DNA of 41,199 nt from Desulfobulbaceae bacterium (GTDB lineage: Bacteria > Desulfobacterota > Desulfobulbia > Desulfobulbales > BM004): assembly GCA_002868955.1 (NCBI GenBank), contig PKTW01000068.1:1-41199 (forward strand). The letters are read 5' to 3'. A program made the position numbers and the translations under genes. The notes under the pieces were generated by a model, which was not told where the DNA came from, searched no databases, and saw nothing but the letters and a program-made list of their open reading frames with translations. Below, piece after piece: positions 1,126-17,818 of the stretch. Numbering within the stretch: the stretch's first letter is position 1; every line of letters starts with the position of its first letter.

Positions 1126-3093
1126 CTATATTTCATTAATGAGCGGTTTAGGCCTGTCAATGATATACCCTTGAATTGCATCAAGGTTAAGTTTCTTAAG
1201 ATGCTCCCATTGCTGCTCGGTTTCAACCCCTTCGGCAATTACTGTTATATCCAGGCTGTGTGCAACACTGCAGAGAGCACCGATAAAGAACCTGCTGTCG
1301 CTCTCTTCATCTTTCAACTCCACTGTGTAAGCCCTGTCAATCTTGACATAGTCCGGACGCAGTGACTTAAGATAGCCCAAATGGGAAAAACCCTGGCCGT
1401 AGTGATCCAGGCCGACAAGATGCCCATACTTCCTGACTGCTGAACTGAACTCTTTAATCCTGTCGAGATGCTGGACTGCGCCGAACTCTGGAAATTCAAA
1501 ATTAACCCGCGGGGCTTTTTTCGGCAGCCGTTCAATTTTATCTAAAAGCCAACGACGTAATGAATCATTCTGGAGCGATGCCGGCGACATATTTACTGCC
1601 ACCCGGTCAGCGCCTATACTAGCTACATCAAGCTGCATCACCTCTTCCAGAACTATACGATCTAGGTATGAAACAAGATGTAAATGTTCAGCAAAGGGCA
1701 TGAATAATCCGGCACTCAAAAGATTGCCGTCTTCCTGTATTATGCGGGCGAAAAGCTCACGATGAATTATCTTATCGCTGTCATGGGTATTGACAACGTT
1801 CTGGGCAAACAGGGTAATTTTGCGTTGTGCTAACGCCTGGTCAAGGATATTTTTCCACTGCTGCCGCCCCAGTGGAATTTCTTCTGTTTCATCTGTGACT
1901 GCACGAACTTCACATTTATTAGGACCAGCCTGCTGGGCCGAACGCAGGGCCAGGTCCGCCTCAGACAACAAACGTTCCAGCCTGGTGAAATTTTCATAAC
2001 ATACAACGCCGACATGGCCAACATTATCCGTCAATGTGAGTTGTTCAACAGCAAGCTGGTTCATTTCAGCGCATACTGCTTCAGCTATAGCTTCAGCATC
2101 CCATGACGAAACATCGGGTACAAAAATGCCGAAATCGCCTCCTGTTAAACGGGCCAGGGTAACATTTGCATGTTTTTTTGCAGCTTCCTGGAGTAAAACT
2201 CCGGCCCGTTTCAAAAGTTCGTCGCCTGCCTGAAAACCTTTCTGCTGATTCAATGCATGTAGATCATTGATCTGGACCAACATTAAAATACCTTGTGTTG
2301 TACTGTCCTGCCGATCAAGCCGGGCGTTTATCTGGCTTTCAAAATAACGCCTGTTACCCAACCCGGTCAGGGAATCATGATAGGCATGCTTACGAAGTCC
2401 TTCTGTAATGGCAACCTGCTCATCAAACATCACCTTGACCTTACCGGTCATGCGGTTCATGGCTTCAACGACACGACGCAGTTCTTTGGTTTTGGGCAGA
2501 TATTTCTGGATCTCATATTTTTTCTTACACAGAGCATCCGCCTGTCGTTCAACCAAAGACAATGGTTTCAACAGTAACCGCAAACCAAATCCTCCTGCAA
2601 AGAGAACGGCAATCCCGCAGACCAAAAACCATAGCGTCATGCGTACAACATTCTCCCACAGGGTCTTATAAGCATACCCGGGATGGCTTTTAACATAAAT
2701 GGTTCCGGCCTGGTTCCAGCCCGACATGACTTTTGCAGATATCTCAGGAGTTTTTAACGGGACCAGGCTGATAAACCATTGCGGCACATTTTCAATGGTG
2801 ACATCAAGCGCCCTGTCTATGAGAATATTACCGTTGGTGTCCGTATATCGAACAATCCGGTAATAGCCCCTGTCAAACACCGCATTGATCATACTTTCAA
2901 TAGCAGGCAAATCATTTTCAGTACTGTACTGCGATATAGACACCCCCAGGGAGGTGGCAGTATCCTGGGCATGCGATTCCAATTGGTCCATGAGAAAAGA
3001 CCTGGTACTCTCAAACTTTACCAGCAGAGTTCCTGTAAACAGGATCAAGAAAAGAACCAGCGTGAAGATAACGAGTTGCCTGTAAAGTGTCAT
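1126..3093 (-). CDS. lapD: LapD-like cyclic di-GMP receptor (degenerate GGDEF-EAL)
   Basis: 655 residues. A first transmembrane segment (about 6-26) is followed by a periplasmic LapD/MoxY-type domain (about 27-150) holding SGWNQAG at 124-130; its tryptophan lines up with the LapG-contacting Trp of Pseudomonas LapD. A second transmembrane segment is at 152-174, a HAMP region at about 175-228, a GGDEF domain at 235-400 and an EAL domain at 410-655. Both enzymatic motifs are broken: TGGDF (317-321) stands where GGDEF is expected, the EAL motif reads ELF (446-448), and the DDFG loop reads DHYG (563-566). This is the pattern of a receptor, not an enzyme. By family knowledge, c-di-GMP bound to the EAL domain makes the periplasmic domain hold LapG away from the adhesin. 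The start has only a weak GGTG Shine-Dalgarno. lapG is 168 bp upstream on the same strand. Confidence 0.9.
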   Translation of the reverse strand: MTLYRQLVIFTLVLFLILFTGTLLVKFESTRSFLMDQLESHAQDTATSLGVSISQYSTENDLPAIESMINAVFDRGYYRIVRYTDTNGNILIDRALDVTIENVPQWFISLVPLKTPEISAKVMSGWNQAGTIYVKSHPGYAYKTLWENVVRMTLWFLVCGIAVLFAGGFGLRLLLKPLSLVERQADALCKKKYEIQKYLPKTKELRRVVEAMNRMTGKVKVMFDEQVAITEGLRKHAYHDSLTGLGNRRYFESQINARLDRQDSTTQGILMLVQINDLHALNQQKGFQAGDELLKRAGVLLQEAAKKHANVTLARLTGGDFGIFVPDVSSWDAEAIAEAVCAEMNQLAVEQLTLTDNVGHVGVVCYENFTRLERLLSEADLALRSAQQAGPNKCEVRAVTDETEEIPLGRQQWKNILDQALAQRKITLFAQNVVNTHDSDKIIHRELFARIIQEDGNLLSAGLFMPFAEHLHLVSYLDRIVLEEVMQLDVASIGADRVAVNMSPASLQNDSLRRWLLDKIERLPKKAPRVNFEFPEFGAVQHLDRIKEFSSAVRKYGHLVGLDHYGQGFSHLGYLKSLRPDYVKIDRAYTVELKDEESDSRFFIGALCSVAHSLDITVIAEGVETEQQWEHLKKLNLDAIQGYIIDRPKPLINEI

Positions 3094-11269: not shown

Positions 11270-11340
11270 CCCCGCGGCAAGCCACGGGGTATTTTTACAA
11301 GTGTTGCTACCCAACAAACGCGGCAAGCCGCGGGGTATTT
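11270..11340. repeat. Pair of REP-like palindromes, likely also terminating the coiled-coil gene
   Basis: Copy one (11270-11294) is CCCCGCGGCAAGCCACGGGG followed by TATTTTT. Copy two (11319-11340) is CGCGGCAAGCCGCGGGG followed by TATTT. The two share the CGCGGCAAGCC core and the CGGGGTATTT end, 49 bp apart. Each folds into a GC stem with a minimal loop. The T-run behind copy one makes it a plausible rho-independent terminator for the gene ending at 11177. Shared sequence between the copies suggests a genome-wide intergenic repeat family. Confidence 0.6.
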
Positions 11341-11357
11341 ACCCTAAGAGAGAATAA

Positions 11358-11388
11358 AAAAACCCCTCAGAATTAACTGAGAGGGTTT
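11358..11388. terminator. Hairpin with flanking A and T runs
   Basis: AAACCCCTCAG and CTGAGAGGGTTT form a stem with a small internal mismatch around a 6-base AATTAA loop. An A-run lies on the left, so on the minus strand the stem is followed by a T-run. It could end transcripts of the minus-strand small gene at 11502. Confidence 0.6.
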
Positions 11389-11501: not shown

Positions 11502-11771
11502 CTATTTCCCATTTATTTTTAATTTTATTTCTTTTTTGGTGCATATATAAATCTTTTTTAAAGCTAGAAACTTTCCTTTTCCGAGATATTCTTCTGATAC
11601 TTTAAATTGTCTAGAATCATATTCTCCTTTATCTTTTTTGGACAACCAATAAACCACAGCCGCGAATTTTTCCGCTTCCTCTCTGGTTTTACATACTTTT
11701 AGACCCTTGTATTTTAATTTTTCAGAACCGGGTCTATTATAAGAATATTCTACTTCATACCAAGTTTCCAT
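11502..11771 (-). CDS. Small hypothetical protein downstream of the c-di-GMP riboswitch
   Basis: 89 residues, METWYEVEYSYNRPGSEKLK at the start, rich in Lys, Glu and Tyr, with a TREEAEKFAAVVYWLSKK helix and a beta-rich tail. No signal peptide or membrane span. The DNA is clearly more AT-rich than the housekeeping genes nearby. AGAGGA lies 11 bases before the ATG. A candidate terminator follows at 11358-11388, and the c-di-GMP-I riboswitch is about 190 bp upstream on the same strand, so it is the first sizeable gene the riboswitch could control. I do not recognise the family. Confidence 0.55.
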   Translation of the reverse strand: METWYEVEYSYNRPGSEKLKYKGLKVCKTREEAEKFAAVVYWLSKKDKGEYDSRQFKVSEEYLGKGKFLALKKIYICTKKEIKLKINGK

Positions 11772-11827
11772 TTTCAGTGTTATCCTCTGAATGCTAATAA
11801 AATTTTGTTATGTTGGATTAAAAACAA

Positions 11828-11878
11828 TCAAGGCGTTTGGTTGTAATGATTGAATAGTAAATCTGTAATTACATCCAT
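11828..11878 (-). CDS. Possible 16-residue peptide directly after the riboswitch
   Basis: The frame MDVITDLLFNHYNQTP starts at 11878 with GGTGGAGG 6 bases before the ATG, a near-ideal ribosome site. It sits between the riboswitch terminator (11921-11955) and the 89-residue gene, and stops 56 bp before that gene starts. It may be a short regulatory leader peptide, a real micro-protein, or a relic of a longer gene. Confidence 0.4.
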   Translation of the reverse strand: MDVITDLLFNHYNQTP

Positions 11879-11920
11879 TTCACACCTCCACCGATATGTA
11901 ATCGTTTCTAATTGTAAAAC

Positions 11921-11955
11921 AAAAAAACCGAGAAACCTCTCAAGAGGCAGCTCGG
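11921..11955 (-). terminator. Riboswitch expression-platform terminator
   Basis: On the minus strand CCGAG (11955-11951) pairs with CTCGG (11932-11928), and CCTCT (11947 side) pairs with AGAGG across a short loop, with a 3-base internal loop. Seven T follow (11927-11921). It begins 6 bases after the P1 stem of the riboswitch. Confidence 0.85.
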
Positions 11956-11961
11956 CTCCGA

Positions 11962-12037
11962 TGTAAATGGCAACCCAGCTATCTCGATGAGACCTGTGGC
12001 TTTCCGTCCCTGCCTCGCAACAGGTTTGGCTTTTACA
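11962..12037 (-). promoter_or_regulatory. Cyclic di-GMP-I (GEMM-I) riboswitch aptamer
   Basis: Minus-strand RNA shows the full GEMM-I layout. P1 is TGTAAA (12037-12032) with TTTACA (11967-11962). Next come GCCAAACCTG, a hairpin capped by a GCGA tetraloop (12018-12015), the conserved GGGACGGAAAGCC, then P3 (CACAGGTCTC with GAGATAGCTG) and the closing GGGTTGCC. The GNRA loop and P3 receptor are the known docking pair. The base three positions before AAACC, equivalent to G20 of the Vc2 aptamer, is G (12030), pointing to c-di-GMP and not to the cGAMP-selective GEMM-Ib variant. That assignment rests on alignment by eye. It controls the terminator at 11921-11955 and the small genes beyond. Confidence 0.9.
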
Positions 12038-12208
12038 ATTATTAAAATATGCTCAGCTTCTTTTAAAATACCTTTGCAGTTGCTTTCAGTAAAATAGAAA
12101 TCCAACTAACATTATTACAATAACTTTTCCAGAGATATTTTTCAAGTTACTATTACATAAGGACATTTAACCTGCCACAATATTGTATATGAAAGGCATG
12201 CCATACAA

Positions 12209-14926: not shown

Positions 14927-16042
14927 TCAGTGTAACTGGTATCCTTTCTTTGTAAACAAATCAATTGAAGCATCCACGACATCGGGGTCATACAGTATTC
15001 CTCTCTTCATGGTAATTTCCTCAAAGGCGTCATCAATACCAAGTGCAGGCCGATATGGACGATGAGAGGCCATTGCCTCAATAACATCGGCAACCCCGAG
15101 AATTTTTGCTTCTAGGAGAATTTCTTCGCCTTTGAGGCCGTATGGATAACCTGAACCGTTAAGCCTTTCATGGTGTTGCAGCACAATATCTGCAACGGGC
15201 CATTTAAAATCTATGCCTTTCAATATCTCATAACCTGCCTGGGGATGCTGCTTGATCAAGGAAAATTCCGATTCATTAATCTTACCCGGTTTGCTTAAAA
15301 TCTCAGCTGGAACAGAAATCTTGCCCAGGTCATGTATGACTCCAGCCATGCGAATACCGTCTATCACCTGTTTGGACAGACCCATTCCATAGGCTACTGC
15401 TCCGGCAATATCAGTCGTCCGACGCTGATGACCGGCAGTATAGGCATCCCTTGTCTCAACAGTTCTTGCAATTGCCTGGATTGTACCGTCTAGATTCTTA
15501 CGCATCTGCTTCATATTATTGCGTAATTTTTCTTCAGCAAGCTTGCGTTCGGTAATATCCTTATAGATTTTTACAACTACAGAAGGCTTGCCGTCATTAT
15601 CCCAGGAAACGACCCGGGCGGTACCCTCAAAGTACATACCGGTACCATTCTTGGATTTCATCTTCATTGAATGGCGCTTGGCAGTATTGCCATTGCGAAA
15701 GGCCTGGCGGGTCAGGCATGAAGAGGGATCACAACAGAGCTCTTTCTTGCCGTACAGGGCTTCACAGCAGGATTTTCCCAAAATATCATGGCCGAAATTT
15801 ATTTTTGCCTTCTCATTGGCCCACAGAATTATTAAATTCCTGTCGACGAGTGTCATGTGCGCATCAACTGACTCAAGCATTGCCTTATACTGTGCTTCAC
15901 ATTTGTGCAGACTCTCCTTTGCGGCAAGCCCGCATTCGGCTTTTTCCTTCTCCAACAGTTCTATACGCCTGATCAGTTCATACTTCTCCACTTTTTCACT
16001 CACAATAAAGCTCTCCAATTCCGCAATTTTGGCTGTTTTCAT
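14927..16042 (-). CDS. PAS-HD-GYP cyclic di-GMP phosphodiesterase
   Basis: 371 residues. A short coiled coil (1-45) leads to a PAS domain (about 50-165) and an HD-GYP domain (185-371). The catalytic set is complete: His205, HD at 237-238 (VIHDLGK), HH at 290-291 and the GYP motif at 298-300 in HERLNGSGYP. The family opens c-di-GMP to pGpG or GMP with a metal centre. The PAS domain carries five cysteines within 18 residues (CCEALYGKKELCCDPSSC, 92-109), which could bind a metal or sense redox. AAGGGA lies 9 bases before the ATG. It begins 15 bp after the MerR-cyclase stop, so the two are almost certainly one operon. Confidence 0.9.
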   Translation of the reverse strand: MKTAKIAELESFIVSEKVEKYELIRRIELLEKEKAECGLAAKESLHKCEAQYKAMLESVDAHMTLVDRNLIILWANEKAKINFGHDILGKSCCEALYGKKELCCDPSSCLTRQAFRNGNTAKRHSMKMKSKNGTGMYFEGTARVVSWDNDGKPSVVVKIYKDITERKLAEEKLRNNMKQMRKNLDGTIQAIARTVETRDAYTAGHQRRTTDIAGAVAYGMGLSKQVIDGIRMAGVIHDLGKISVPAEILSKPGKINESEFSLIKQHPQAGYEILKGIDFKWPVADIVLQHHERLNGSGYPYGLKGEEILLEAKILGVADVIEAMASHRPYRPALGIDDAFEEITMKRGILYDPDVVDASIDLFTKKGYQLH

Positions 16043-16057: not shown

Positions 16058-17818
16058 TTAACCAGCAATATCTATTGTGCCTGAATCCTGTACCATCGGG
16101 CCCTGAAATACTTTTTCCCTGATCTCTGTTATTGGAAGTCCTGCAATTGACGATAAATGGCGGTAATCGAAAGTATCATTATCAATTATATCTCCTATCC
16201 TGGAAAAGGAATTGCGGATGAAGGTCCTTCCTGCCTGGTTTTCCTGATGCACCCCAAAGCGGATCATATTCCGTTCATCATGTGTAAGCCGGCTGATAAG
16301 GTTCTTTGTTGTCCAGATCTCACCATTATGGGCAAGATCTGAAAGCCGGGCAGCAATATTGATGCTATCGCCCAGGGCTGTAAACTCAATATTATTTGAT
16401 GATTGAACGGTTCCAAAAAACTCCTGTCCCTCATTGATGCCGGTATTTAAAAACAGCTCAGTGTTCCAGCCCTTGCGAAGTTTCCACTTACTACTCAGTT
16501 CTTTCATGACCTCGCGTATTTCCAAAGCACAATTAACCGCATTCATTAAGTAATTTGCTCCGGGTCTGTGGATGAAATAATAGAGCATTCCATCACCAGC
16601 ATGTTTGCCATATATACCTTTATATTTTTCAAAGGTTGGGCCAACTGTCTGCCATAGTTCATTGATTAACTCAAAATAATGAGCCGGCAGCAATTCAGCA
16701 CTTATTTTCACCGAATCCTGGAGGTCTGCAATGAGTACGCAAAGTGATACCAGGGACGGCATTCTGTTTTTCAGGAGTTCATTAATTATTTTGTCTCGCT
16801 GGGATAGCATATCCAGCAAGGCCGTATTGACACTGTCTTGCGGCACATAGACAAAGAAAGTCCCTTCCCTGAATGACATGGTATGCACCCAGTAGGACAA
16901 ACTGGAATTGTCGGATTTCGTAATTGTTGCTGGAAGGTGATAGATATTTTCAACGGCAGATCTACTCTTTTCTACAAATAACTCATCCAGTATCGTTATT
17001 TCCCTTTCTTTAATACCATCAAATAATGAATGCAGATTATTTTTAGAAATCCTGTTTTGTAAAACGGTTAGATGAAGAAGTACGGACTCTCTCCAGTTAC
17101 GTACATCTTTGCATAGTTCCTCGTTGAGCAGCAGCTTAAAGATATTTCGAGACTCAATATCAACAATCGGCCTGATGTCACGATTAAAAATTAACTCTTC
17201 AGCCGGTTTATTGATCCATTCAATCTCGAAATTATGATTAATCAGATATGCCGGTGAACTGATATCACTGATAGTTACCTGCAGTTCATCGGTGATTACT
17301 CTGCGTTGGGTTTGTGGAAAAGGATTTTCAGGATGGCGAATTTGAATCTTAGGTTCTTCGATGTCTTTGATGATGTCTTCAATGTCGCCTTGGTCTTTTT
17401 CATCTGCCCGATCTGCTATGTCTTCTCGAACCGGAATGTCTAAAAGGTCGTCAAGGTTTTCTGAGATTTTATCGTCTAAATGAGCATCGAGGTCTTCTGT
17501 GTCTTTATCGTCTACACGGGCTTCAAAGTTTTCCATATCTTGTAAGTCTTGATCTGCAATTGCAGAACCCTCTTGAAACATATTGGCTATTTCGTCCATG
17601 GTATTGCCTTGCTGCTTCAACAGTTTAACTTTTAAAATATTCTCCAAGACACTTACAGGGAAATAGCCGATTTGTTTTACGCCTTTCTGATCAGGACCCG
17701 GTCGTCTTACAATAGGCTTGGGCAGAATACCCATCTTTATGTAATTATTGAGGGTAGCCCGTGAAATACCTGTTTGTTGCATTAGGTCTTTGCTGGTAAT
17801 TAAATTGCTAGTGCTCAT
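16058..17818 (-). CDS. MerR-type HTH fused to class III adenylate/guanylate cyclase
   Basis: 586 residues. A MerR-like winged helix (1-85: KDLMQQTGISRATLNNYIKM, with a GYFP wing and LLKQQGNTMDEI) is followed by a very acidic linker (90-155, DLDAHLDDKISENLDD), a PAS-like segment (about 175-325) and a class III cyclase domain (350-545). Both metal aspartates (Asp365 in LIADLQDS, Asp409 in HAGDGM) and the Asn487/Arg491 pair in GDSINIAARL are present, so the cyclase looks active. Cytoplasmic, no membrane span. GGGAG stands 4-5 bases before the ATG. The gene leads an operon with the HD-GYP protein. Palindromes at 17970-18201 upstream may be its own operators. Substrate (ATP or GTP) cannot be decided by eye. 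Confidence 0.9.
   Translation of the reverse strand: MSTSNLITSKDLMQQTGISRATLNNYIKMGILPKPIVRRPGPDQKGVKQIGYFPVSVLENILKVKLLKQQGNTMDEIANMFQEGSAIADQDLQDMENFEARVDDKDTEDLDAHLDDKISENLDDLLDIPVREDIADRADEKDQGDIEDIIKDIEEPKIQIRHPENPFPQTQRRVITDELQVTISDISSPAYLINHNFEIEWINKPAEELIFNRDIRPIVDIESRNIFKLLLNEELCKDVRNWRESVLLHLTVLQNRISKNNLHSLFDGIKEREITILDELFVEKSRSAVENIYHLPATITKSDNSSLSYWVHTMSFREGTFFVYVPQDSVNTALLDMLSQRDKIINELLKNRMPSLVSLCVLIADLQDSVKISAELLPAHYFELINELWQTVGPTFEKYKGIYGKHAGDGMLYYFIHRPGANYLMNAVNCALEIREVMKELSSKWKLRKGWNTELFLNTGINEGQEFFGTVQSSNNIEFTALGDSINIAARLSDLAHNGEIWTTKNLISRLTHDERNMIRFGVHQENQAGRTFIRNSFSRIGDIIDNDTFDYRHLSSIAGLPITEIREKVFQGPMVQDSGTIDIAG

Follow-up and report, generated by a model that had tools for sequence, protein, structure and literature searches.

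What does a cyclic di-GMP-I (GEMM-I) riboswitch control when it is followed by a 16-codon frame and a gene for an 89-residue protein, and in which direction would it switch them? The locus lies on a contig of 41,199 nucleotides (C132; the whole stretch analyzed is here called the window) from an uncultured Desulfobacterales bacterium, whose 2.66-Mb genome is 93% complete in 189 contigs. We propose, with a probability of roughly 0.68, that it senses c-di-GMP and acts as a transcriptional OFF riboswitch for a short mRNA carrying the 16-codon frame and the 89-codon gene.

The aptamer and its attenuator strands

The aptamer was confirmed as a genuine member of the known GEMM-I/c-di-GMP-I class. 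Positions 12039 to 11965 (-) matched RF03167 at 68.4 bits (E value, 2.9e-14; gathering cutoff, 59 bits) and RF01051, the c-di-GMP-I (GEMM-I) family, at 64.4 bits (gathering cutoff, 35 bits), and 21/21 consensus pairs were standard base pairs. A first-pass annotation of the window had called a GEMM-I aptamer with a GNRA tetraloop and a T-tailed terminator close behind it, and had suggested a covariance-model search as the check; the search gave a clear match at that place, the tetraloop is GCGA (12018 to 12015, -), and the T-tailed terminator (about 11960 to 11921) starts 5 to 8 bases past the end of the aptamer. The window shares with the RF01051 riboswitch the aptamer helices, the G20/A47/C92 pocket, the GNRA tetraloop, and a transcription attenuator, but the genes behind the window copy are species-specific small frames. 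The features of the leader are the following.

11965..12039 (-), c-di-GMP-I (GEMM-I) aptamer with P1, P1b, P2, and P3 (RF03167, 68.4 bits; RF01051, 64.4 bits)
12030 (-), G at the selectivity position, matching G20 of Vc2 and A14 of the cGAMP aptamer; J1/2 ends with it in the alignment, position per PMC6274999
12015..12018 (-), GCGA (GNRA) tetraloop of P2, from covariance alignment and sequence
12003 (-), A at the position of A47 (A41 in the cGAMP aptamer), which stacks between the ligand bases; alignment column 37, where the RF03167 consensus is G
11970 (-), C equivalent to C92 (C75), which pairs with the ligand; alignment column 75 (PMC6274999)
11991..12002 (-), S0, 5' strand of P3
11972..11983 (-), S1, 3' strand of P3, partner of S0 (aptamer) or S2 (antiterminator)
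11946..11959 (-), S2, switching strand and 5' arm of the terminator
11921..11939 (-), S3, 3' arm of the terminator with the U7 tract
11921..11960 (-), intrinsic terminator hairpin (S2:S3), from folding; 97.9% of its cells are paired across 12 copies

The pairings S0:S1, S1:S2, and S2:S3 are mutually exclusive and are kept across copies. In 12 copies or relatives from five genomes, the proportion of paired cells was 92.4% for S1:S2 and 97.9% for S2:S3, and sliding either helix by 1 to 3 columns lowered the pairing to 50% or less. S2:S3 showed clear covariation; that of S1:S2 was modest, with compensatory changes in two cells among sequences that are related to one another. The S1:S2 antiterminator of the copies contains an internal mismatch (G-G in the window), and the window has one further mismatch. 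Shuffling produced an equally strong S1:S2 duplex in 13/1000 cases for the window, 4/1000 for G001.C53, and 2/1000 for G008.C199; the value for G004.C29 (57/1000) is not exceptional. Folding was carried out in silico and ignores tertiary contacts and kinetics. In a transcript ending just before S3, S1:S2 had a pairing probability of ~0.99 and broke P3, with -28.2 kcal/mol for the free fold versus -17.1 kcal/mol with the aptamer enforced, about 11 kcal/mol in favor of S1:S2. The complete transcript was nearly balanced, at -40.4 kcal/mol free, with P2, P3, and the terminator formed, versus -39.7 kcal/mol with the antiterminator enforced. An antiterminator made of the 3' strand of P2 and the terminator, considered by eye, was dropped because folding favors S1:S2.

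Predicted ligand and direction of switching

For the ligand pocket, we took A14, A41, and C75 of the cGAMP aptamer as equivalents of the Vc2 triad G20, A47, and C92 (PMC11218506). In the cGAMP aptamer structure, J1/2 ends with A14, P2 starts at C15-G40, A41 forms J2/3, and the ligand is contacted by C75 (PMC6274999). By alignment position, the corresponding bases of the window are G at 12030, A at 12003, and C at 11970; this is the c-di-GMP set, and c-di-GMP is the predicted ligand. With c-di-GMP bound, S0:S1 would be locked in P3 and S2 would be free, and the S2:S3 hairpin with its U7 tract would terminate transcription; with c-di-GMP absent, S1 would leave P3 and pair with S2, no terminator would form, and the polymerase would read on. 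An OFF switch would be expected because ligand-held S0:S1 frees S2 for termination, and by this logic the small frames would be made at low c-di-GMP.

A separate terminator, together with an antiterminator that takes an aptamer strand, is the layout of Cd1, a described c-di-GMP OFF switch (PMC9262584). As in Cd1, the aptamer and the terminator of the window can coexist; the two differ in bacterial group, sequence, and target. The pilM riboswitch of Geobacter metallireducens, a cGAMP ON switch (PMC9262584), has an aptamer homologous to that of the window, and several siblings in the host genome share its layout, but the window has G20 rather than A, carries S2 as an extra strand, and is predicted to switch in the opposite direction. 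The OFF architecture is well supported, and its direction in the cell is a prediction from the modeled pairings. The first-pass annotation had the aptamer and the terminator right but missed both this predicted direction and the sister copies, which bring the GEMM-I aptamers of the host genome to about ten.

Two other readings concern the ligand and the direction. The aptamer might bind another cyclic dinucleotide, 3',3'-cGAMP, or be a specificity variant as in the Rfam name c-di-GMP-I-GGC; indeed, RF03167, which bears that name, is the best-scoring Rfam model (68.4 bits against a cutoff of 59), and the G20 position influences selectivity without acting as a strict filter (PMC9262584). However, we reject the cGAMP (GEMM-Ib) reading on the G, not A, at the G20/A14 position (12030), and G20 is also retained in the other Rfam-detected copies of the host genome. 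The GGC variant is rejected likewise, since the window has A where RF03167 has G at consensus position 37, the A47 equivalent to which the name GGC presumably refers. The top RF03167 score likely reflects a related sequence background, and a different ligand is, in our judgment, improbable. The case for an ON switch comes from the host-genome siblings C112, C122, C91, and C175, which are without S2; there S3 pairs with S1, so that aptamer and terminator exclude each other, which is the pilM ON logic, and several such siblings are read as ON switches, in predicted direction. If the window worked in the same way, S3 would take S1 without ligand and the ligand would prevent termination. The S1:S3 complementarity does remain in the window (-12.3 kcal/mol), as in these four ON-type siblings, but S2:S3 is stronger (-19.0 kcal/mol) and nearer, terminator and aptamer can coexist, and ligand-bound P3 would leave S2:S3 free, all of which makes an ON switch unlikely here. 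The automatic ON/OFF calls for G000.C150 (OFF) and G006.C63 (ON) were ambiguous and were given no weight, and some copies received no call. The same aptamer appears to be wired both ways in one genome, the difference being an inserted S2 strand of about 20 nt, and through this clean natural comparison of the window with its siblings, how ON/OFF polarity evolves can be tested directly.

The small frames behind the riboswitch

12088..12093 (-), -35 element TTTACT, with a 17-nt spacer to the -10 element; aligns with TTGACT of G004.C29
12065..12070 (-), -10 element TATTTT; aligns with TATCAT of G004.C29
11883..11892 (-), Shine-Dalgarno sequence GGTGGAGGTG of the 16-codon frame, -10.6 kcal/mol with the anti-Shine-Dalgarno sequence
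11828..11878 (-), 16-codon frame MDVITDLLFNHYNQTP
11502..11771 (-), 89-residue gene, with orthologues in G005 and G007 (dN, 0.13 to 0.17)
11356..11385 (-), intrinsic terminator closing the transcript

The window promoter, TTTACT-17-TATTTT, was aligned with TTGACT-17-TATCAT of the homologous copy G004.C29; its -35 element was absent from the list of a consensus promoter scan. The short mRNA would start near 12058 and end near 11356. The strong ribosome site that had been pointed out for the 16-codon frame (11878..11828, -) ranks among the best 8 of the 1505 ATGs of the window in duplex energy, and -10.6 kcal/mol was reached in 2/2000 shuffled leaders, a test that was applied post hoc. This rarity makes initiation at the 16-codon start likely, as judged from sequence. 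We infer that the frame is translated and that it is cotranscribed with the 89-codon gene; no terminator was found between the two.

The 89-residue gene, first described as AT-rich and without a recognized family, bears out that description. Its frame has 29.6% G+C versus 43.5% in the window, and the protein had no match in Pfam, NCBIfam, or PDB, with all PHROG matches below threshold. Orthologues in two genus-mates (G005 and G007) showed 79% and 75 to 76% identity, with dN of 0.13 to 0.17 and changes mostly at third codon positions, which indicates a real gene under purifying selection. An AlphaFold model (pLDDT, 73.8; pTM, 0.62) gave nothing significant in fold searches of PDB (best E value, 0.53) or of viral structures (best E value, 0.0096); the PDB search returned several weak, nonsignificant matches to archaeal ribosomal proteins. 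Plasmid, phage, and named-genome searches for the gene recovered only the same two relatives (Deltaproteobacteria and Desulfobacterales MAGs).

The link between riboswitch and gene did not extend to the relatives. No GEMM aptamer precedes the gene in either genus-mate that has it, the 150-residue gene that lies upstream in the window is present in five relatives, in none of which an aptamer follows it, and the 16-codon region had no DNA match in eight genus-mates, whereas the aptamer-terminator part did. Searches by protein (89 and 150 residues), DNA, and covariance model in the genus and the family found no conserved linkage of riboswitch and gene. Such linkage is detectable where it is present, since three species of the genus have kept a 216-residue isochorismatase-like gene, named by eye, behind an ON-type GEMM-I (L004, L048, and L057). 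The small frames had been put forward as the target of the riboswitch, with their conservation behind it in relatives as the test. That conservation was absent for the gene link, although the riboswitch itself recurs, and the small frames are unsupported as an established target; the idea of a special small-protein target comes from one genome and is weakened by the relatives. With no riboswitch at the gene in the genus-mates, the pairing of riboswitch and 89-residue gene is local and probably recent, and the G+C contrast makes the gene look acquired, an AT-rich gene behind a dispersed riboswitch cassette.

These observations also fit a reading in which the original target gene was lost and left the 16-codon frame as its stub, whereas the AT-rich 89-residue gene, unrelated to it, came in later and is under no meaningful regulation. 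Synteny is lacking, relatives have no aptamer before the gene, its G+C content stands apart (29.6% versus 43.5%), and the strong ribosome site leads into no conserved peptide; purifying selection on the 89-residue gene and the lack of a terminator between the two frames speak against it. We hold a lost target to be a serious minority possibility, about half as probable as the regulated short mRNA. A leader peptide that adds a second, translation-dependent layer of control on the 89-residue gene is much less probable. The position and the ribosome site of the 16-codon frame suggest it, as do the short first frames of the OFF-type copies G008.C199 (28 codons) and G004.C29 (29 codons), but these peptides have no common sequence, the next start lies 56 nt away, so that coupling is unlikely, and a full gene follows G001.C53, which is of the same OFF type as the window. 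The locus also shows that a riboswitch can stand before a gene that came in only recently, which urges caution in inferring gene function from riboswitch linkage in a single genome. Elsewhere in the host genome, GEMM-I copies L002, L003, and L008 stand before small proteins of 79, 65, and 66 to 68 residues, respectively, two of which have CxxC pairs and are zinc ribbon-like.

RNAs derived from the 3' half of the cassette, and neighboring genes

The DNA search also matched stretches with the 3' half of the cassette only, and a model of that half found more. Four leaders, L077 (G000:C147:6862-6954), L078 (G000:C134:6735-6823), L081 (G001:C305), and L079 (G006:C216), are without P1b-P2 but keep S0-S1-S2-S3 and the terminator; the first three precede genes for exported proteins or lipoproteins. 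A further class of ~105-nt RNAs from the GEMM 3' half comprises seven copies in four species (G004:C37:3367-3480, C37:9080-9189, C54, and C5; G008:C6; G007:C152; and G002:C179). Most have a TTGACA promoter; the leader reads CGTTGTGTG...ACAGAAAGTCAAAGG, and no obvious gene lies behind. Across the order (194 genomes), this class gave strong matches in this genus only. The G008:C6 copy lies between 15-bp inverted repeats, GGAACACAATACTTA on one side and TAAGTATTGTGTCCC on the other, with a spacing of about 260 bp. The aligned half-GEMM RNAs keep S1:S2 and S2:S3, with S1:S2 weaker in G006:C216 and G008:C6, and the G002:C179 member is without S2. By eye, a decayed half-GEMM (L122, G004:C37:506-592) lies ~190 nt before an IS110-type transposase-like frame, and the G004:C5 copy is followed by a flank similar to that of L122.

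Loss of P1b-P2 removes the c-di-GMP contact G20, and the half-GEMM RNAs may be relics or functional. One tentative account, which we consider somewhat doubtful, is that the riboswitch cassette is an element dispersed in the genus, whose intact copies, that of the window included, were the source of RNAs in which P1b-P2, and G20 with it, was lost and the S0-S1-S2-S3 attenuator kept, one class standing before exported-protein genes and the other being a stand-alone RNA on a MITE-like repeat. If the P1b-P2-less RNAs still switch, they would respond to something other than c-di-GMP. They may be more novel than the window riboswitch, and the role of an attenuator after loss of the ligand pocket is a question worth its own study.

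The nearby c-di-GMP proteins named in the first-pass annotation check out: a LapD-like protein (1126..3093, -), which scored 546 bits to the LapD model, below the 1020-bit cutoff of that model, and a protein with an HD domain and PAS (14927..16042, -). Next to the HD-domain gene is a gene for a 586-residue protein (16058-17818, -) with a nucleotide-cyclase domain and a weak MerR-like helix-turn-helix match. Between converging genes at 11270-11345, the window contains two near-identical G+C-rich hairpins of the CGCGGCAAGCCGCGGGGTATTT type, an apparent repeat.
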